Positions 29,934-41,042 of a stretch of 64,000 nt of DNA are shown in pieces. The DNA comes from an uncultured Myxococcales bacterium (GTDB lineage Bacteria; Myxococcota_A; UBA9042). How positions within the stretch are numbered: the first letter of the stretch is position 1; every line of letters begins with the position of its first letter. Under the pieces are notes generated by a model. That model ran no database searches, had not been told where the DNA came from, and was given only the letters and a program-made list of their open reading frames with translations. The translations under genes and the position numbers were made by a program. The stretch is taken from the NCBI GenBank assembly GCA_903842345.1, contig CAIMLR010000007.1, positions 310,001 to 374,000 of the forward strand, read 5' to 3'.

Positions 29934-30488
29934 TCAGAACGACAGCGCGACGAACTGCTCCATCCAGAGCTGCAGCAGCCGCTGCCGGTCGACCTCGCGG
30001 TGCGCCAGCCATTCCAGACTCGTGTGCTCGGCAAAACCCAGCCAGCCGTGCAGCCGCAGCCGCGTCAGCGGGTCGTCGCCCAGCCCAACCAGATCGCGAA
30101 TGCGCTCCAGCACCGTCCGGCGCACGCGCTCAACCAGGCTGTTCACCTCCGTGTCCATGCCGATGCCGCCGCGCAGCAGCGCTTGATAGACGGCGGCGTT
30201 GGCCTCAATGAAGTCAAGAAACTGCCCAAGCGTGCGCGCCAAGACCGCCTGCGGATCCTCGCCGCGCGCAAAAGTCAGGAGCGCCAGCAGCTCGTCTGCC
30301 AGGGACTGCACGGTGGCCACGTAGTATTCGCGCTTGCCGGGAAAGTAGTGGTAGAGCAGCCCTTTGGAAATGCCGGCAGCCCGCGCGATGTCGTCGGTCG
30401 AAATGGCGTCGTAGGCATGTGCGGAGAACAACTGCCGACCGAGGGCAATCAGCTGCGCGCGTCGCTCTTCTACAGTCTGTCGTGCCAT
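29934..30488 (-). CDS. TetR-family transcriptional regulator
   Basis: A 184-residue repressor-type protein. The N-terminal helix-turn-helix reads TDDIARAAGISKGLLYHYFPGKREYYVATV, whose diagnostic elements are Ile-Ala-x-x-Ala-Gly-Ile-Ser and Tyr-His-Tyr-Phe at about residues 33-55. The rest is the usual helical ligand-binding domain. The start ATG at 30488 diverges from the nucleotidyltransferase gene over 144 bases, which makes that lipid-headgroup operon a candidate target. I see only a weak inverted repeat there (GCAACGC at 30525 and GCGTTGC at 30561), too widely spaced for a standard operator. Confidence 0.9.
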   Translation of the reverse strand: MARQTVEERRAQLIALGRQLFSAHAYDAISTDDIARAAGISKGLLYHYFPGKREYYVATVQSLADELLALLTFARGEDPQAVLARTLGQFLDFIEANAAVYQALLRGGIGMDTEVNSLVERVRRTVLERIRDLVGLGDDPLTRLRLHGWLGFAEHTSLEWLAHREVDRQRLLQLWMEQFVALSF

Positions 30489-30632
30489 CGGCGCCTCAAT
30501 CCTCGAACCCGCGTCATGCTGGTGGCAACGCCGGCAAAGGTCAATCGACGACGGGCGGCAGCGTTGCGCCAACGGCCAAGCCGTCGCATCATGGCGTCGC
30601 CGCGGCAGGGATCGCCGCAAACGGGGCTGACC

Positions 30633-31376
30633 ATGAAAGCAATTCTTCTCGCGGCGGGCGTTGGACGGCGGCTGCGGCCGTACACGGAAGACCGGCCGAA
30701 GTGCCTGCTTCCGTTCAAAGGCAAGACCCTGCTGGATCGCCATCTGGACGCGCTGGAAGCGACGGGCGTCCACGAGGTCATCATCGTGCTCGGTCACTGC
30801 GGCGACCAGATCCGCGCGGCGGTGGCCCAGCGCCACGACGCGGCGCGCGTGCAGTTCCTCGAGAATACGCGCTACACGGAGGGCTCGATCCTCTCGCTGC
30901 ACACCGCGATTGGCCACATTGACGACCACGCCGACGGCGCGATTGTGATGGACGCCGACGTGCTCTACCCGCGCGAGCTGATGCGGCGGCTCGTGCAAAC
31001 GCCCGGCACGGCGTTCCTTGTCGATGAGACGAGCCTCGAGACGGGCGAAGAGATGACCGTCGGCATCAAGGACGGCCGCGTGCGGACGATCGACCGGTTT
31101 GTCGGGGATGGCTGGGATCTCAAAGGTGAGACGGTCGGCTTTACCAAGTTCGCCGCGGAGGACGCTCCGGAGCTGCGCCGCCAGATGGACGCGTGCCTGG
31201 CGGAAGGGCTGAACAAGGCCGAGTACGAAGCGGCGATCATCCGCATGCTCAAGACCTGCCCGGGTCGCTACGCGCTCGTCGGCGATCTGCCGTGGACGGA
31301 GATCGACTTTGACGCGGACGTCGAGAAAGCCAAGGAAATGCTGCCGGAAATTGAAGCGGTGGACGCCAAGCCCTAG
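30633..31376 (+). CDS. Sugar/choline-phosphate nucleotidyltransferase family protein
   Basis: A 247-residue cytosolic enzyme of the NTP-transferase fold. It starts MKAILLAAGVGRRLRPYTEDRPKC in outline (Gly-x-Gly-x-Arg-Leu and the downstream Pro-Lys pair bind the nucleotide), followed by GKTLLDRHL and the metal-binding DADVLYP at about 110-116. Its closest functional relatives by pattern are LicC-type CTP:phosphocholine cytidylyltransferases. The gene 13 bases downstream encodes a CDP-alcohol phosphotransferase, which makes CTP-dependent activation of an aminoalcohol phosphate or inositol phosphate the likeliest role. The nucleotide and substrate cannot be read directly. Confidence 0.82.
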   Translation: MKAILLAAGVGRRLRPYTEDRPKCLLPFKGKTLLDRHLDALEATGVHEVIIVLGHCGDQIRAAVAQRHDAARVQFLENTRYTEGSILSLHTAIGHIDDHADGAIVMDADVLYPRELMRRLVQTPGTAFLVDETSLETGEEMTVGIKDGRVRTIDRFVGDGWDLKGETVGFTKFAAEDAPELRRQMDACLAEGLNKAEYEAAIIRMLKTCPGRYALVGDLPWTEIDFDADVEKAKEMLPEIEAVDAKP

Positions 31377-31388
31377 CCGGAGCCCGCG

Positions 31389-32399
31389 ATGACCGTCCAG
31401 TACGTGCTGCACGACCGTTCGATCCTGCTGCCGCATGTGACGCGGTGGGTCGTCAAGCCGTTGCTGCGCGTGATTCCGCACGGGGTGAGCGCCAACGCGT
31501 TGACGCTGTCGTCGCTGACGTGCGCGGCGACCGGTTTCGCGGCGTCCCTGCTGCTGCCGCCGTCCGGCTGGACGCTGCTGCTCGTGGCGCTGCTCTTCAC
31601 CGGCTACACGCTGCTGGACAACCTCGATGGCCCGCACGCGCGCCAGACCGGTACGACTTCTCCGCTCGGCGAGTTCCTTGACCACTGGCTGGACTGCTTG
31701 AACGGGATCTTCGTCTTTGTCGGCAGCGTTTTTGCCCTGCAGGCGCAGGATGCGCGCGGCATGGCGATCATCGCGCTGATGGTCGCGAGCACGTCCCTGA
31801 CGTTCTGGGAGCAGCGCGTCACCGGGCGGATGTACATGGGCCGGATCGGCACGCTGGAAGGCCTGCTGCTGGTGATGGGCATGCTGCTGCTGGCGGCGAT
31901 CGTCGGGACGGCGCACTTCCACGAGCCGCTGTGGCGCGGTTATGACGGCATCGACTTCACGCTCTGGGCCGGGATCATCGCAGGCGGCTCAACGATTCTC
32001 GGCCCGATGTGGCGCACCGGCCGCAAGCTGCACCAGGCGCTCGGCGTGGTGGCGGTGCTCGCGGCGCTGCTCGCGTGGCAGCAGCTTGGCCAGGTGCCGC
32101 TGCTGCTGCACTGCGTGCTCGCGGCGGCGGTGGGGCCGCTGACCGGCGGGCGGTTCATCCTCGGCCGCGTGACAAAGCAGGAGAACGTGGGACCGGAGGT
32201 GCGCGTGCTCACGGCGATTGGCGTCGCGGCGCTGGCGTGCCTCGTATTGCGGCCGTCTGCGGCGGTGCAAACCGGCCTCGCGGCGGCGCTGCTGGTGTGG
32301 GCAGTGGTGCAGATGCTCCTGGATTTTCGCGGTGCGGTGCGGCAGCTCGCCGCATACGTGCGGCCCAATGAACTGCTCGCGCACCTGCTGGCCAAGTAG
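31389..32399 (+). CDS. CDP-alcohol phosphotransferase (choline/ethanolamine type)
   Basis: An integral membrane enzyme of 336 residues with eight to ten hydrophobic helices. The catalytic signature DGX2ARX8GX3DX3D is complete in DNLDGPHARQTGTTSPLGEFLDHWLD in outline: Asp-Gly, Ala-Arg, Gly, Asp and Asp at about 79-103. The family moves a phospho-alcohol from a CDP-alcohol onto a lipid. Length and topology resemble eukaryotic-type choline/ethanolamine phosphotransferases more than the ~200-residue PgsA or PssA. Together with the nucleotidyltransferase 13 bases upstream it outlines a Kennedy-like branch for phospholipid headgroups. Confidence 0.88.
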   Translation: MTVQYVLHDRSILLPHVTRWVVKPLLRVIPHGVSANALTLSSLTCAATGFAASLLLPPSGWTLLLVALLFTGYTLLDNLDGPHARQTGTTSPLGEFLDHWLDCLNGIFVFVGSVFALQAQDARGMAIIALMVASTSLTFWEQRVTGRMYMGRIGTLEGLLLVMGMLLLAAIVGTAHFHEPLWRGYDGIDFTLWAGIIAGGSTILGPMWRTGRKLHQALGVVAVLAALLAWQQLGQVPLLLHCVLAAAVGPLTGGRFILGRVTKQENVGPEVRVLTAIGVAALACLVLRPSAAVQTGLAAALLVWAVVQMLLDFRGAVRQLAAYVRPNELLAHLLAK

Positions 32400-33336: not shown

Positions 33337-33364
33337 GCAACCAGCGGTCCGCTTGTTTGGTTGC
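33337..33364 (+). terminator. Inverted repeat after the MaoC gene
   Basis: GCAACCA at 33337-33343 and TGGTTGC at 33358-33364 are perfect complements separated by 14 bases, starting 13 bases after the MaoC stop codon. An inner GCGG/CCGC pair could stack in the loop. There is no downstream T run, so it is either a factor-dependent terminator or a regulatory hairpin in the leader of the NifH-like gene. Confidence 0.35.
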
Positions 33365-33500: not shown

Positions 33501-34361
33501 ATGGCTGAAAAACCTGCCAAGAGCCACAACCGCCCGCGCTCGCTGGCTTTTTATGGCAAGGGCGGCGTGGGCAAGTCGACCGTCGTCAGCAACCTCACGG
33601 CCGCGCTCGCGCACAAGGGCCGGCGCGTGCTGCAGGTCGGCTGCGATCCCAAGCGGGACAGTTCGCGCAACCTCATCAAGACCTTTCCGCCGACGACGCT
33701 GATGGACCTGCTGTCCGTGGGCAAGACCGACCTCGTGCCGTCGGACATCCTGATGGACGGCGGCGAGAACGTCGAGTGCATCGAAGTCGGCGGCCCCAAG
33801 CCCGGCGTCGGTTGCGCCGGCCGCGGCCTCGGTCGCTTGTTTGAAGAACTTGAAACAATGGAGATTTTTGACCGCGGCTACGACTACGTCTTCTACGACG
33901 TGCTCGGCGACGTGGTCTGCGGCGGTTTTGCCGTGCCGATGCGCGATGGCTACGCGGAAGAAGTCTACGTCGTCACGTCGGGCGAATTCATGAGCCTGTA
34001 CGCCGCCAACAACATTGCCCGTGGCATCGCCAACTACGCGGAACAAGGCGATATCCGCATGGGCGGCCTGATCGCCAACGTCAAGGATCTGGCGTTTGAC
34101 CGCGCGCTGATCGAGAAATTCGCCGAGAAAATCGGGACGCACGTGGTCTGGTACCTGGAATGGAACAAGGTGGTCTACGAGGCCGAACGGCGGCGCAAGA
34201 CCGTGCTGCGCTACGCGCCGGATCACCCGTTTGCCCAGGAATGGCTGGACATGGCCGATGCGCTGGAGAAGAAGGCCAAGCCGCACATCCCGCATCCGAT
34301 GAGCGACACGGAGCTGGACGTGTTCCTGGAAGATCTGTTTGGAATTCAGGCGGAAGAGTAG
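33501..34361 (+). CDS. NifH-like iron protein of a nitrogenase-like reductase
   Basis: Homodimeric ATP-dependent [4Fe-4S] reductase, 286 residues. Seen: P-loop GKGGVGKST (19-27), switch I-like CDPKRDSSR (48-56), cluster ligands C105 in PGVGCAGRG and C140 in DVLGDVVCGGF, and the Arg of the GCAGRG loop (ADP-ribosylation site in NifH). The stretch FYDVLGDVVCGGFAVPMR and the downstream SLYAANNIARGI are closer to true NifH than to BchL or BchX, which have GCGG here. The ATG at 33501 is preferred for length; GTG at 33474 behind GAGGT is an alternative. It would pass electrons to the two component-1-like proteins encoded convergently at 34395-37106. Confidence 0.88.
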   Translation: MAEKPAKSHNRPRSLAFYGKGGVGKSTVVSNLTAALAHKGRRVLQVGCDPKRDSSRNLIKTFPPTTLMDLLSVGKTDLVPSDILMDGGENVECIEVGGPKPGVGCAGRGLGRLFEELETMEIFDRGYDYVFYDVLGDVVCGGFAVPMRDGYAEEVYVVTSGEFMSLYAANNIARGIANYAEQGDIRMGGLIANVKDLAFDRALIEKFAEKIGTHVVWYLEWNKVVYEAERRRKTVLRYAPDHPFAQEWLDMADALEKKAKPHIPHPMSDTELDVFLEDLFGIQAEE

Positions 34362-34394
34362 CGTCCGGGCGATTGTCGGCAGCGCGCCGCCCCG

Positions 34395-35723
34395 CTAGCG
34401 CCGCCGCGTCACCGTCTGCATGACCTGTTCCGCCAGCCGCAACGCGCCGTGAAAGCCCAGCCAGGGCGCCGGCTGCAGGAAGTGCCGCTGCTCGCTCGGA
34501 AAGCCGAATTCCAGGAACGGCACGCCGCAATCGCCCAGCAATTCGCGCTCGATCGTCGTGCCAATCGCGATGGACGTCCCGTGCAGCGCCGTCCCGGACC
34601 CCTCGCCCGCCAGCCCGCGAACCTGCTGCGGCGTCGGGTCGATCAGCCACTGCACGTCCTTGGGCAGCGTCACGCCGTGCTCCGCGAGCATGGCCTCCAC
34701 CTCGCGTTGGCCGCCCAGACGGAAATGCGTCACGCCGAGCACGGTCGGCGTCATGTTCAGCTCGCTGAGCAGCAGGATGAGCCCGACGAGCCGCGGCGCC
34801 TCCGCAAATGCGGCAAACCGTTGGCCACGCAGGACCCGGCGCGCCAGCTCCGCCAGCGGTTTTGCCGTCTGCAGCTCGGCGGCGACAAACGCGTCCGCGC
34901 GCGCCTGCGGAATCTGCAGCGCATCGGCGACTTGCTTGATCCACCGCTGCGTACCGGCAAAACCCATGGGCAGCGAGACTTTGTGCAGCGAGCCGGCGGG
35001 CAGTCCGGGCGTCTTCTGCAATTCCCGCAGCTGCCCATGCGCCCACGGCAGCACCAGATGGCCACGCGCCTGCGTCGTGTGGGAAAGCCGCGCGTACGGC
35101 TCGCCCGCGAGGTAGACCGACGTCGCGCGCAGCCCGATGCCGGCAAGCAGCCGCCGCACCTCCGCGACGTTGCCCTGACAATCGCCTTCAAAACGGTCAA
35201 ACGGCACGCCCAGGACGCTCACCTGATCGGGCTGCACATGGACTTCAAAACGCTCGAACTGCCTGCGAAAAATCGCCGCGACCGTCGCCGCGTAACCCGC
35301 GTACAGGTCGTCCTGATAGTTGCGCGTCGCGATCGCCAGCACATCCACGCCGGTTTTCTGGCGCAGGCGCTCCACAACCGGGCCCAGCGGCTGGGCCTGG
35401 AGGGAAACGGGCGTCGACGAGTCGATCACCACCAACTGACTCCCGAGGCGGCGGGCAAACGCGATGATCTCCGATTCCAGCTGCTCCGTGGAGCCCTGGA
35501 TCAGATCTTCGTCGATGAACTGGGAGTAGCGCATACGGTTGTGCGCTTCCGTGCCAAAGTCGTGTGCGCTCAGATGCTGTTGGGTCTTGACCTTGCACCC
35601 GACCGAGGCGTGGCACATGCAGAGCGCGTCAGCGACCGCGTGCGCCGCCAGATAGACGCCAAAAAACGGCGTGTGGCTGCTGCTGCGAATCACCAGGTCG
35701 TCGAGCGTCAGGTCCTCGTACAC
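34395..35723 (-). CDS. Nitrogenase component-1-like subunit B (NifK/NifN-like C-terminus)
   Basis: A 442-residue cytosolic protein of the NifD/NifK/NifE/NifN/BchN/BchB superfamily. The N-terminus holds C35, C37 and C43; C43 in MCHASVGC aligns with the second P-cluster-type Cys (HGPxGC). The element DEDLIQGSTEQL (71-82) parallels EKDIVFGGxKKL. The Cys preceding by about 26 residues is replaced, and there is no equivalent of the third Cys. The C-terminus has LEFGFPSEQRH and LGFHGALRLAEQ, strongly like the GFPxxDRH...LGYEGA region of NifK/NifN. GTG start behind GGAG; nine bases after the other subunit gene. The iron-molybdenum-cofactor ligands of NifD are not evident. Confidence 0.85.
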   Translation of the reverse strand: MYEDLTLDDLVIRSSSHTPFFGVYLAAHAVADALCMCHASVGCKVKTQQHLSAHDFGTEAHNRMRYSQFIDEDLIQGSTEQLESEIIAFARRLGSQLVVIDSSTPVSLQAQPLGPVVERLRQKTGVDVLAIATRNYQDDLYAGYAATVAAIFRRQFERFEVHVQPDQVSVLGVPFDRFEGDCQGNVAEVRRLLAGIGLRATSVYLAGEPYARLSHTTQARGHLVLPWAHGQLRELQKTPGLPAGSLHKVSLPMGFAGTQRWIKQVADALQIPQARADAFVAAELQTAKPLAELARRVLRGQRFAAFAEAPRLVGLILLLSELNMTPTVLGVTHFRLGGQREVEAMLAEHGVTLPKDVQWLIDPTPQQVRGLAGEGSGTALHGTSIAIGTTIERELLGDCGVPFLEFGFPSEQRHFLQPAPWLGFHGALRLAEQVMQTVTRRR

Positions 35724-35732
35724 GCGGACTCC

Positions 35733-37106
35733 TCAAGTGGCGGAAGCCGCGACCATCTGCGACGGCAGCACAAGGCGCGCAACCGCGTCCGAGTCATCCG
35801 GCAGCTGCGCATGTTCCTGAAACGTTTGATAAAATGTGTCCCGCAGCGCGCGATCCACCGTCGCGAGGACGCGCGGGACCTGCAGCCAACCCAGGCGGAC
35901 GTCGCCGTGTTGCAGCAGCGGAATCCCGCGCTGGCTCAGCTGGTCGCGCAGAAAACCCGCGCCGTAGAACACGTCGTAGGCGCTGCGGGACAGCATCTGC
36001 CGCAGGCTGCTCGTCGCCGGAAACAGGCAAAACGGCCGATCCACGTGCAGGTCGTGCAGCACGCGCGCGACGCGCTGCCAATTCGCCTCGTCTTGCGGAC
36101 CTTGGATGAAGATCGCGGTGGTGAAGCCCAGTTCGTCAAACAGCGGCAGTTCGCCCAGCTCTTCCTGGGCGATGCGCCGCAGGTCAAAACTGCGCACGGA
36201 GCCGACGTTGTAGGCCACCCGCAGCGGTTTGTCGGCCCACTGCTGACGGAATCCGGCGATCGCCGCGACCGCGACTTCCCGTCCCGGCAGACCCAGCACC
36301 GCAGCCGCCGGTCGTCCCGTCGCTTCAGCAATCGCCTGCCAGAAACGGTCGGTCGCTGCGACGCCCACGGGCAGCGGCACCTCGATCGACTGCTGCTGCC
36401 ACTGCTCCAGCGCGACCTTGCGCAAGCCGACGAGCATGTCCGGACCCGGGTGAATCAGCCAGCCGGCATCGGCGGCGCGCAAAAAATCGTCCAGGCCGGA
36501 ACGTTCATTCAGCACCGCGTTGACGGTCAGCCCCAGCGCGGCAAAGCCGGCGTCCAATTCCGCGCGCTCCTCCGGTTGCAGCGACACGCCCACGAGGTTC
36601 ACGCGGTCCTGACGCGCCGCGAGCGTCGGCCGGGACGCACGCGCCAGCAGCGTGTACACCGTGTCCAGGATCTCCGCGGGCGAGCGCGGCTTCAGGCCGT
36701 GCGTCACTTCCGCTTCCACGCGAATACCCAGATCGCGCGCGGCCTTGCGCGCCACGTTCACGACGTTGTCGCCGATCATCACGGTCGGACAGGTCGAGAG
36801 CACGAGGATCAGGTCCGGCTGCAGCGACGCGTGCACAAGTTCAATCGATCGCCGCAGCTTGGCGTTGCCCTGGCCGGTCACCAGCTCGTCTTCCCGCATG
36901 TTGGTGCACAGAAATTTGTAGGCAAGATCGCTCTGCACGCGGCCGCCGGTCTTGGGCAGCACGTTGGAACAGTCGCGGTCCGAGTGGATGACCACGGCGA
37001 ACCGCCCGCGCAGGCGTGAGAGGAGTTCCGTGGCGCCCTGGTAGCTGCACGCTTCCTGCGCCAACAACGCACCGGGATACATGCGGTGCGGGCGGTGACG
37101 GGGCAT
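35733..37106 (-). CDS. Nitrogenase component-1-like subunit A (three-cysteine cluster site)
   Basis: A 457-residue partner subunit. Three Cys sit in the order and spacing of cluster ligands: C20 (EACSYQGA), C46 (SDRDCSNVLP) and C106 (VLSTCPTVMIGDN); NifD has 26 residues between its first two ligands, as here. The elements CTNMREDELVTGQG (with an extra C67) and LSTCPTVMIGDNVVNVARKA closely parallel NifK/NifN. A later VPLPVGVAATDRFWQAIAE matches the PIGVxATDxFL motif. ATG 37106 has GGAG upstream. A [4Fe-4S] or P-cluster-like centre held by three Cys from this subunit plus a ligand from subunit B would resemble dark-operative protochlorophyllide reductase. Substrate unknown. Confidence 0.85.
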   Translation of the reverse strand: MPRHRPHRMYPGALLAQEACSYQGATELLSRLRGRFAVVIHSDRDCSNVLPKTGGRVQSDLAYKFLCTNMREDELVTGQGNAKLRRSIELVHASLQPDLILVLSTCPTVMIGDNVVNVARKAARDLGIRVEAEVTHGLKPRSPAEILDTVYTLLARASRPTLAARQDRVNLVGVSLQPEERAELDAGFAALGLTVNAVLNERSGLDDFLRAADAGWLIHPGPDMLVGLRKVALEQWQQQSIEVPLPVGVAATDRFWQAIAEATGRPAAAVLGLPGREVAVAAIAGFRQQWADKPLRVAYNVGSVRSFDLRRIAQEELGELPLFDELGFTTAIFIQGPQDEANWQRVARVLHDLHVDRPFCLFPATSSLRQMLSRSAYDVFYGAGFLRDQLSQRGIPLLQHGDVRLGWLQVPRVLATVDRALRDTFYQTFQEHAQLPDDSDAVARLVLPSQMVAASAT

Positions 37107-37845: not shown

Positions 37846-40098
37846 CTACTTGGCGCGGAAGCTGTCCGTCCAGAGCGGCGGCGGCGGCGCGGAGCCGGCC
37901 TTCAGCATGGCCTCCCAATCCTCGTCGGAGAGCCGCTTGATTTCGTGCACGTCGACTTCGTGATAGCGGAACGTCGGGCCAACAAAGGTCTCCGCGCCCG
38001 TACACGTGTCCACCGTCAGCACCATCAGGCTCACGTTGCCCGTCGCGACGTGCAACACGTCCGGCCCGGGCAGCGGTCCTTGATTGGCATTGGTATGCAC
38101 GTCGGCAATCGTCGGCTTCCACTTGTCCAAGCTCTCCACGCGAAAGAAGAGCGACGTGTACCAGCCGCTGTACACCTGCCCGCACATGTTGCCCTGGGCG
38201 ATGACGCTCTTCAGGAACTTCTGGTCTTCCGCTGACGTGCCCTGCCCGGCCACCTCGTGCTCCGCCGCCGTCTGCAGCTTGCCCATGATGTCCTGCCAGT
38301 TGGTGAAGAACTGGTTGAGGTTCTGCTTGACGTCCGCTTTCACGACCGGCGCGTTGGCCAGCGCCTGGTTCGCAACCGCACCGAGCAACTTCATCCGCGC
38401 AAAGAACTGCGGATACGGCTCCACGTACGCGCCCGGATGCTCGCACACCGCCACCGCCGTGTAGCTCTGCTTGGCGTAGAGCAGCGTGTCATGCCGCAAT
38501 TGCGCCCAGGACGCCAGCTGCGTGTTGGCCATCTTGTCCCGCCACGCCGGCGTGCGCAGGGCGAACGGGAACTTCACGTCCGTCGTCGGCGCGTTCAACT
38601 GCCGCAGGCCGTCCAGCCACAGGTTGTATACGTTGCCCTGCCAGAACGCCGTGTCGTGCTGGTCGATCAGCCAGCGCAGGGAATGCAGCGCGCCCCAGTA
38701 GGGAAACTGCGCGAAGTCCGGCGCGAGCAGCGGCAGCACCTGGTCGTTGCCCAGTGCGAAGAGCGCGTCCAGCGGGTTGGGCAGCACGCGCTCGACCTTC
38801 TTGCCGTCGTGGATCACGCGGTCAAACGTCACGTTGCTGAACACGTACGAGTCGATGACGAACCGCTGGCCCAAAAGCGCAAACGCCGGCGGCTGCGGGG
38901 CTGGCTCGCTCGTCGTCGGATCGACTTCCAGCACCTGACTGGCGATCTGCTGCGTGCCGTACTGGCCACCCGTCAGCGCGCCGACGACGACCTCAATCTG
39001 CGTGGGCGTCAGCGCGGCGATGTCCGACACGGTCGTCCATTTCTGGTCCGCCGCAAGCTTCTGCACGCCGGCGATATTGATGTAGTCCACGGGACCGACC
39101 AGCAGCGTCAGCAGGTCGTCCGCCGTCTGCAACTCCGGTGCGACGTTGCCCGCCTGCACGGACTGACCCAGCAGCATCGCCAGCATCACCTGCCGCGGCC
39201 GCCACTTCCAGTTGCCCGCCACATCCTGCTCGGCAAAGCGCAGGTCCGTCCGGCCAAGCCACATCATCGCGCGGAAGTACTGTTCCAGTTCCGGCACGCC
39301 GGCATAGTGACCGCGCGGCTTGAACTGACTGAAATCCAGCCTGCGCGGACTGCCAAAAAGCGTGATGTCCGCCATCTGCTCGGCCGCCACCGCGTTGAGC
39401 AGGTCCGCGACCTGACTGTCGACCGCGCCGCCCGTGAGGCTCGGCAGCGTCTTGCCCGCCAACAGGCTGCGCGCCACGGTCAGGTACAGGTCCGCGTCCA
39501 GCTTGGCCGCCTGCGCATCCGCCGCCGCGCCGAGATTGAGCCCCGGCAGCGCCGCCTGCGCCTTGGTCAGCGTGTCGTCGAGGATGCCGATCAGCGCAAA
39601 CTGCTCCAGCATCTTCAAAATGTCGTCGTAGGAAGCGTGGAGTGCCTGCAGGATCGCGTCCGTCGTCACGACCACGGGCAGATCCTTCTGAAACACCTCC
39701 AGCAGCGCTTGCGCCATCGTGTCGCGCTGCAGCCGATCGGAGACCACAAAGCCGTTGGCGTGCAGCTTGGCCTTTTCGCCGTCGGTCAGGGTCAGCTTCT
39801 GGTCGACGAGGTCCATGTTCTTGGCCAACAGCGGATCGGCGGGCGGCACAATCGGCTTCACCGCGTCTGACGGCGTGTGCAGCGCGAGGAACTGCTCCAG
39901 CGTCATGGTCTTGGCGTCGGCGACAACCGGCGCGTAGGCCGTCAGGAACGCCGCTTTCTGCGCCGTCACGGACGGCTTGCCGGTCACGGGCACGCCGATG
40001 TCCTCGCCGGGACTCGCAGCGGGCGCGTTGCCGGCACAGGACCCAAGGACGACGCTGCCGAACAGCGCGATGAGGCACACAAAACGCGGAGCACGCAT
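37846..40098 (-). CDS. DUF3160-type lipoprotein
   Basis: A 750-residue exported lipoprotein (signal peptide with lipobox GSC near residue 21). The body is largely helical, with conserved-looking blocks such as FVVSDRLQRDTMAQALLEVF, PVVVTTDAILQALHASYDDIL and a late GNMCGQVYSGWYTSLFF, which I recognise as the DUF3160 family of exported proteins common in Myxococcota and Bacteroidota. No catalytic residues are established for that family. The ATG at 40098 is picked because it gives the signal peptide; the frame is open for another 80 codons upstream. The bPH-like gene follows 78 bases downstream. Confidence 0.8.
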   Translation of the reverse strand: MRAPRFVCLIALFGSVVLGSCAGNAPAASPGEDIGVPVTGKPSVTAQKAAFLTAYAPVVADAKTMTLEQFLALHTPSDAVKPIVPPADPLLAKNMDLVDQKLTLTDGEKAKLHANGFVVSDRLQRDTMAQALLEVFQKDLPVVVTTDAILQALHASYDDILKMLEQFALIGILDDTLTKAQAALPGLNLGAAADAQAAKLDADLYLTVARSLLAGKTLPSLTGGAVDSQVADLLNAVAAEQMADITLFGSPRRLDFSQFKPRGHYAGVPELEQYFRAMMWLGRTDLRFAEQDVAGNWKWRPRQVMLAMLLGQSVQAGNVAPELQTADDLLTLLVGPVDYINIAGVQKLAADQKWTTVSDIAALTPTQIEVVVGALTGGQYGTQQIASQVLEVDPTTSEPAPQPPAFALLGQRFVIDSYVFSNVTFDRVIHDGKKVERVLPNPLDALFALGNDQVLPLLAPDFAQFPYWGALHSLRWLIDQHDTAFWQGNVYNLWLDGLRQLNAPTTDVKFPFALRTPAWRDKMANTQLASWAQLRHDTLLYAKQSYTAVAVCEHPGAYVEPYPQFFARMKLLGAVANQALANAPVVKADVKQNLNQFFTNWQDIMGKLQTAAEHEVAGQGTSAEDQKFLKSVIAQGNMCGQVYSGWYTSLFFRVESLDKWKPTIADVHTNANQGPLPGPDVLHVATGNVSLMVLTVDTCTGAETFVGPTFRYHEVDVHEIKRLSDEDWEAMLKAGSAPPPPLWTDSFRAK

Positions 40099-40256
40099 GG
40101 CCAACCTCCAGCAATCAGGGCGCGGCAGGAAATGCGTGCCGCGCGCGCCATGGCCAAGCAGGCCACGGACGGGGAATCCCGCGCCGACAAGATAGGCGAT
40201 TGCGAACATGGCGCTCGCGGCGGCAGAACTGCGTAGCGGCAAATGCGCGGATGGCG

Positions 40257-41042
40257 CTACGGCCGCAGCTTTTCGGGATAATCCTCGCCAAATCGCCAGC
40301 TGAAGGCGGGCGCCGCGAGTTCCATATCGGCCGGCCAATGAATGCCGGCGTGGCGCCAGAAATCGACAAAAACGTCGTAGTCATCGAGGTCGTATTCGTC
40401 GTCGGCAAAGGCCGGACCTGCGGCAAATGGCGCCGGCTCGGGGGCAAAGAACCGCGCAAAAAACCCGCGCTTGGGCGGCTTGGCGGCCACCTCTTCGGCA
40501 TCGAGGTCGCGCAGATACGGCGCGATCGCCGATTCCGGCACCGCGAATTTGCGCGCCAGCACCGCTGCGTCGCCGCGCCACGCCTCGGACAGGCCAACCG
40601 CATCCGCGACCGTCGCCGTCATGCGCGCAGGCCGCGAACAGAACTGATCGACGATGGCGCCGTTTTCCACAAGCACGTGCGCCCAGTAACGGCCCTCTTC
40701 CACAAAGACGACGGACGCCAGCAGCCGCAGCTCCCGCGTCACCGCCTCAACCGCCGCCACGTCAAGGCCAACGAACCGCTCCGGCCAAAACACCACGACC
40801 CAGCCGTTCTGCGGCTGAAAAATCAGCGTATTGCTGGCAAATTCATCGCTGACTTCAACGGCCTCGCACGCCACGCCACGGGCTTGAACGTAGCGCGCGA
40901 TCGCCGCGGAAACGGCCGCAGCGTCGCCGGTACGAAAAGCTGTCGTGCTGACAAATGCGCCCACCAAGACCCCGCCGCAAGCTGCCCCACAGCCCGTTCC
41001 AGTACGTTGCTCCGCGCACGGCTTTGGGTCAAGCGGGTTCAT
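40257..41042 (-). CDS. Protein of unknown function coupled to a GH1 gene
   Basis: A 261-residue protein without signal peptide, starting at ATG 41042, whose ATGA overlaps the stop of the upstream beta-glucosidase gene. The N-terminus has several Cys (PCAEQRTGTGCGAACGG) and the C-terminus ends in an acidic patch (DDEYDLDDYDVFVDF) and a Trp/Phe-rich tail. The central part is an alpha/beta domain with hydrophobic strands such as NGWVVVFWPERFVGL. No family recognised. Coupled translation suggests linked expression with the glucosidase, though the two products likely occupy different compartments. Confidence 0.7.
   Translation of the reverse strand: MNPLDPKPCAEQRTGTGCGAACGGVLVGAFVSTTAFRTGDAAAVSAAIARYVQARGVACEAVEVSDEFASNTLIFQPQNGWVVVFWPERFVGLDVAAVEAVTRELRLLASVVFVEEGRYWAHVLVENGAIVDQFCSRPARMTATVADAVGLSEAWRGDAAVLARKFAVPESAIAPYLRDLDAEEVAAKPPKRGFFARFFAPEPAPFAAGPAFADDEYDLDDYDVFVDFWRHAGIHWPADMELAAPAFSWRFGEDYPEKLRP

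Follow-up and report, generated by a model that had tools for sequence, protein, structure and literature searches.

Several relatives of nitrogenase have been described, and their component-1 subunits differ in metal ligands. In dark-operative protochlorophyllide oxidoreductase (DPOR, BchLNB), a single bridging [4Fe-4S] cluster is held by three cysteines of BchN and one aspartate of BchB (PMC11423573). MarDK has six P-cluster cysteines together with Cys270 and His429 (PMC12552129). Isr is a Group IV three-subunit enzyme that lacks ligands for the iron-molybdenum (FeMo) cofactor; IsrD keeps one cysteine and IsrK three (PMC11423573). Here we describe a set of three genes, H, D and K, in 64,000 nucleotides of DNA (the window) from an uncultured Myxococcales bacterium (contig CAIMLR010000007.1, positions 310,001 to 374,000, assembly GCA_903842345.1). 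The set encodes an intact three-part nitrogenase relative from the Myxococcota that is neither nitrogenase nor one of its characterised relatives.

A NifH-type reductase gene beside two component-1 genes

We found H on the forward strand, and D and K on the reverse strand, at window positions 33501-37106 (open reading frame [ORF] table and Pfam; Table 1). An original prediction, made from the letters of the window, had placed a NifH-type gene beside two NifD/K-superfamily genes in this range, and both the range and the assignments were right. H starts at the ATG at 33501; the listed ORF, from a TTG at 33357, is over-long. D lies upstream of K on the same strand with a gap of 9 bp. H is convergent with D-K, its stop ~30 bp from that of K, and there is therefore no HDK operon. 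The GC content at third codon positions is 0.82-0.85 in H, D and K and 0.79-0.90 in neighbouring genes, so there is no sign of recent foreign insertion. Chance as the source of the observed set is excluded.

The P-loop of H is intact, the GCAGRG loop is present, and the two cluster cysteines fall at exactly the residues predicted, 105 and 140, counted from the ATG. With curated profiles, H scored 315 bits for NifH, 303 for CfbC, 210 for BchL and 164 for BchX, all below the cut-offs (394 bits for NifH and 402 for CfbC). H is thus nearer to NifH than to BchL or BchX, as had been claimed. Its identity to a Group IV-like Treponema NifH is ~46%.

Confident AlphaFold models of D and K (predicted local distance difference test scores of 87.5 and 88.0) have the full three-domain component-1 fold. 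In Foldseek, D and K matched all component-1 families at 13-22% identity, and K gave template modelling scores of 0.76-0.79 with the DPOR NB chain, NifK and MarK. Because these families are about equally distant, the fold does not discriminate function. The combination of a NifH-type ATPase and Oxidored_nitro subunits with this fold puts the set in the nitrogenase superfamily, broadly defined.

Table 1. Coordinates of the H, D and K genes and of their motifs and cysteines in the window
Feature	Coordinates	Strand	Evidence
nflH-like gene (H), NifH-type reductase	33501..34361	+	PF00142 Fer4_NifH E=4e-91; 78-96% identical orthologues
H P-loop, GKGGVGKS	33555..33578	+	sequence; invariant in 10 orthologues
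H Cys105, [4Fe-4S] ligand, GVGCAGRG loop	33813..33815	+	invariant in 10 orthologues
H Cys140, [4Fe-4S] ligand, DVVCGGF	33918..33920	+	invariant in 10 orthologues
nflK-like gene (K), component-1 subunit, 442 aa, GTG start	34395..35723	-	PF00148 Oxidored_nitro E=8e-48
K Cys43, putative bridging-cluster ligand, NifK C70 / single BchZ Cys position	35595..35597	-	invariant in 24 K; reference alignment
K Cys35 + Cys37 (CMCH), extra cysteines	35613..35621	-	13/13 focal K; absent from sister K
nflD-like gene (D), component-1 subunit, 457 aa	35733..37106	-	PF00148 Oxidored_nitro E=2e-36
D Cys106 (NifD C154 position)	36789..36791	-	invariant in 24/24 D; reference alignment
D Cys67, extra cysteine	36906..36908	-	invariant in focal clade
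D Cys46 (NifD C88 position)	36969..36971	-	reference alignment, 24 D sequences
D Cys20 (NifD C62 position)	37047..37049	-	reference alignment, 24 D sequences

D and K have cysteines that fit one bridging cluster

We located ligand positions by aligning D and K with reference proteins and scored conservation across 24 sequences of each subunit. D has all three (3/3) P-cluster cysteines and K has one (1/3), with no cysteine at the positions of NifK C95 and C153. The four cysteines, D Cys20, Cys46 and Cys106 and K Cys43, are invariant or nearly so. The position of the cofactor cysteine, NifD C275, is cysteine in the NifD and NifE references and glycine in D, and it is also not cysteine in the sister proteins sampled in the alignment. 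The predicted lack of a FeMo-cofactor ligand was thus borne out. The ligands of D and K would fit one bridging [4Fe-4S] cluster with three cysteines from D and one from K. This is the layout, three alpha plus one beta, of DPOR and chlorophyllide a oxidoreductase (COR, BchXYZ), and from the published ligands it is not that of Mar or Isr.

COR resembles the focal set in having H, D and K components. BchY has three cysteines and BchZ one, at the same aligned positions as in D and K, and the cofactor cysteine is likewise missing. However, BchX, BchY and BchZ profile scores were far below cut-off, the approximately unbiased (AU) test rejected a shared clade (below), and the genome lacks bacteriochlorophyll genes. 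DPOR shares the component architecture and the component-1 fold. It differs in its fourth ligand, which is aspartate in BchB and cysteine in K, and it falls in a separate clade. CfbCD resembles the set through the CfbC score of H, but Cfb has no K subunit, and H and D reached only 303 of 402 bits (CfbC) and 29 of 268 bits (CfbD).

The genome lacks partner genes of the known systems

The source genome is a draft metagenome-assembled genome (MAG; 5.85 Mb, 95.7% complete), and absences hold within that completeness. D and K are its only PF00148 genes, and therefore nifEN and bchNB/YZ are absent; H is its only strong NifH-family gene. The best genome-wide match to NifB scored 19 bits against a cut-off of 344 and is not credible. 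There was no genome-wide match to PF02514 (CobN/BchH/Mg-chelatase), so a (bacterio)chlorophyll pathway is not present. The original prediction had reported no nifE, nifN, nifB or bch gene near the set, and these results extend that absence from the window to the whole genome.

We rejected nitrogenase itself. D lacks the NifD C275 cysteine, K has one of the three P-cluster cysteines, and there is no nifE, nifN or credible nifB. Scores were also below cut-off, at 315 of 394 bits for NifH and at best 31 bits for NifD/NifK against 427-654. A related possibility is that D and K are not themselves a catalyst but serve, like NifEN, as the scaffold or maturase of another metalloenzyme. NifE was the top NCBIfam profile for both, weakly (51-52 bits), and NifE chains were among the top fold matches of D. 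However, NifE keeps the cofactor cysteine that D lacks, and such a scaffold would be without a credible NifB, which makes this role highly improbable.

The three-plus-one ligands could instead belong to a reductase of tetrapyrroles or porphinoids whose substrate is a compound of the heme or siroheme pathway. They are shared with DPOR, apart from its aspartate (PMC11423573), and with BchYZ, and CfbC was the second-best profile for H. Such a role, suggested in the original prediction, stays as a rival, but one that we regard as unlikely. The genome lacks Mg-chelatase/CobN, CbiF (cobalamin synthesis) gave only sub-threshold matches in 22 genomes of the order, carriers and non-carriers of the set alike, no tetrapyrrole gene lies nearby, and the AU test rejects a grouping with Bch.

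The prediction had also raised MarHDK-like sulfur chemistry. A rival of this kind would be a Group IV enzyme of the Mar or Isr type that cleaves C-S bonds in sulfur salvage. MarD and MarK (9d9u, 9fmg) were the best solved-structure sequence matches for D and K. In contrast to D and K, Mar has a full P-cluster, an [Fe8S9C] cofactor and MarB. K lacks two of the six P-cluster cysteines that MarDK needs and D lacks the equivalent of Cys270 (PMC12552129), no credible NifB/MarB was found in the genome, and sulfur genes are not adjacent to the set. IsrHDK is likewise a three-subunit set without FeMo-cofactor ligands, but its distribution of cysteines, one in IsrD and three in IsrK (PMC11423573), is the reverse of that in D and K. 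The radical S-adenosylmethionine (SAM) partner IsrB was not among the scanned neighbour genes; no genome-wide search for IsrB was made. From the ligands and the lack of a credible NifB/MarB, we did not retain the Mar-like proposal, and a Mar- or Isr-type enzyme is very unlikely.

H, D and K form clades apart from Nif and Bch

We found that the focal proteins fall outside the canonical Nif and Bch clades. In the H tree, the focal clade (support 100/100) groups neither with the NifH, Group IV, BchL or BchX references nor with other Myxococcota H proteins. In an 83-sequence D/K tree, each focal subunit is one clade within a larger Myxococcota clade; in a 36-sequence tree, support was 100/99 for the Myxococcota D clade and 96/96 for the K clade. 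AU tests rejected grouping focal D with BchN/Y (p=2e-4) and focal K with BchZ/B (p=1e-7). With Nif and Group IV references taken jointly, grouping was also rejected for D (NifD/E, p=1e-6) and for K (NifK/N, p=1e-4), and neither subunit shares the Group IV clade. These trees used references from five organisms, with Bch from one organism and on long branches, and were built without authentic CfbCD, IsrHDK or R. rubrum Mar.

The Treponema and Chlorohelix references are Group IV-like by gene context (NifB/NifX, cysteine genes) and are not proven MarHDK. On plasmid pTS2 of Treponema saccharophilum (L121, L127), a gene annotated nifH occurs with NifB/NifX, cysteine-synthesis and several component-1 genes; the product of this set is probably not a nitrogenase but a sulfur enzyme of Group IV.

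The nearest relatives are unnamed D-K pairs and H-D-K sets of other Myxococcota (L080-L119), 23-32% identical. They have the same three D and one K ligands, but they lack the extra K cysteines of the focal set, and most sister pairs have no adjacent H. In other families, D-K pairs (L080-L097) usually have no H gene next to them and may share one encoded at a different locus. Three or four such relatives occur in each of several genomes, and multiple paralogues are found within single genomes such as G210 and G044. Other arrangements include H-D fusions of ~1000 aa next to a K gene (L098:5241-8240, L110:5539-8796, L119:1774-4764), H-D-K sets in which D has a 200-300-residue N-terminal extension (L043, L081, L118), and a NifD-like protein with an N-terminally fused radical SAM domain, its gene directly followed by a NifK-like gene (L105:6773-9442, L111:10567-13260). 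The radical SAM domain is possibly a built-in cofactor-maturation or radical partner. Two genomes of the same family and genus that lack the focal set (G004, G002) carry other long-D nitrogenase-like sets (L043, L103, L104). In the open-access literature, we found no description of the focal clade or of these Myxococcota D-K genes. D and K belong to a large Myxococcota radiation that is apparently undescribed.

One sister locus bears on a further alternative, a reductase of the Birch type acting on aromatic or unsaturated coenzyme A (CoA) thioesters. Birch-type reductions require very low-potential electrons. A protein with two type III CoA-transferase domains is encoded at L081:11427-13997, 13 bp upstream of a D-K pair and on the same strand; these genes are divergent from a second H-D-K set. 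However, the CoA-transferase occurs at this locus only, no CoA gene is kept beside the focal set, and the MaoC gene of the window neighbours the set only within the genus. We consider a Birch-type reductase improbable.

H and K are inherited together and are under purifying selection

Within the order (22 genomes, all draft MAGs), K was found in 12/22 genomes at 51-83% identity. Focal-type H (78-96% identity) was present in 10/12 K carriers and 0/10 non-carriers; that is, 10 genomes had both, two K only, none H only and 10 neither (Fisher p=1e-4). In one of the two genomes with K and no H (G021), the contig breaks off within K, on the flank that carries H in other genomes. In the other (G013), the focal D is frameshifted and split over three frames (L034:3655-5288), reflecting either loss in progress or assembly errors; the set thus appears to decay together. 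H is on another contig in G017 and G010, with no contig end beside K to account for the separation; in G018 the contig that bears K stops at that gene. The link between H and K therefore does not rest on adjacency alone.

Within the genus, dN/dS was ~0.05 for H, ~0.11 for D and ~0.16 for K, values indicating that all three genes are under purifying selection. A decaying relic without function would be in keeping with the patchy distribution and with the broken D and missing H of G013, but ligands and motifs are invariant and dN/dS is low in all three genes, and we consider a relic extremely improbable. By these sequence measures, the set is a real, functional, not-yet-characterised member of the nitrogenase superfamily.

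Focal-type sequences were restricted to the source family in 379 genomes across the phylum and 52 of the class. Beyond the family, K and H have their next relatives at ~30% and ~50% identity, respectively. A pattern-based scan covering 84,980 species, limited in sensitivity, returned Myxococcota loci only. Gene content of carriers and non-carriers was compared by single-family tests. NrdD, a marker of anaerobiosis, was absent from 22/22 genomes of the order, and 2-oxoacid:ferredoxin oxidoreductase genes were present in 22/22, so neither gives a contrast between carriers and non-carriers.

Neighbouring genes

The window neighbours of the set encode PhoU-domain, NTP transferase with CDP-alcohol phosphatidyltransferase, MaoC-like, bPH_5 and DUF3160 proteins. 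They are common only to close relatives and point to no pathway. In an all-against-all comparison of neighbours, only H, D and K were kept outside the genus. The set recurs in other genomes of the order, the check that the original prediction asked for, but its neighbours do not recur with it beyond the genus. The neighbours of sister sets (kinases, M16 peptidase, AIR-synthase-like, cpn60 and CoA-transferase by Pfam) have no common theme.

At 30000-32399, the NTP-transferase gene adjoins the CDP-alcohol phosphatidyltransferase gene, with PhoU and ABC-transporter ATPase genes upstream; the two adjoining genes are possibly an inositol-phospholipid synthesis pair. The DUF3160 protein (37846-40338) has 830 aa (E=4e-145). 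An 856-aa open frame on the forward strand, antisense to D and K (34449-37019), has no independent support as a gene and is probably a high-GC artefact.

Discussion

The observed motifs, fold and ligand positions, together with gene content, clade, conservation and co-inheritance, lead us to regard H, D and K as the likely parts of a two-component, ATP-dependent reductase of the DPOR/COR kind, with an organic acceptor and without a P-cluster or FeMo-type cofactor. The enzyme probably drives electrons onto an organic molecule at the expense of ATP, and by analogy its class of mechanism is likely that of DPOR and COR. The original reading of the set as a reductase of unknown substrate, distinct from nitrogenase, DPOR, COR and CfbCD, agrees with the ligands, scores, gene content and trees.

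We propose a scheme in which the oligomeric state, cluster type, electron donor, ATP coupling and substrate class are all inferred. H would be a homodimer with one [4Fe-4S] cluster that accepts low-potential electrons from ferredoxin, and 2-oxoacid:ferredoxin oxidoreductase could supply the reduced ferredoxin. H would bind MgATP, dock on a D2K2 component and transfer electrons singly. The electrons would reach a single bridging [4Fe-4S] cluster on D Cys20, Cys46 and Cys106 and K Cys43, and would pass from there to an organic acceptor in a D/K cavity. As in DPOR and COR, a P-cluster and FeMo-type cofactor would not be used. Around the cluster motif of K, His38, Lys44, Lys46, His54 and His61 are invariant or nearly so and might suit an anionic substrate. 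The substrate is probably one that no characterised relative uses.

Several points weigh against this scheme. The enzyme is known here from genes and models, all the genomes are draft MAGs, and no pathway neighbour backs any substrate. Three cysteines are peculiar to the focal clade, namely D Cys67 and, in K, Cys35 and Cys37 (the latter two forming C-x-C-x5-C with Cys43), and they could build a different or second cluster. In addition, the histidine ligand of MarD was missed when read from sequence, until the structure was solved (PMC12552129), and D/K might therefore conceivably hold an oddly ligated cofactor.

We lean towards the view that the set belongs to an undescribed Myxococcota radiation, alongside D-K pairs without H, H-D fusions and fusions of radical SAM with D, and that the reduction it catalyses is performed by none of the characterised superfamily members. 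H genes of this kind could be wrongly counted as diazotroph markers in surveys based on NifH. The Myxococcota sequences give new material for asking at what point ligands of the P-cluster and cofactor arose or disappeared. The characterised branches of the superfamily each do a difficult reduction at the heart of one pathway, whether N2 fixation, chlorophyll, F430 or sulfur salvage. The Myxococcota branch is deep and separate, has intact machinery and a minimal set of clusters, and within this one phylum occurs as several paralogues per genome, all of which suggests reductive chemistry that is as yet unknown.

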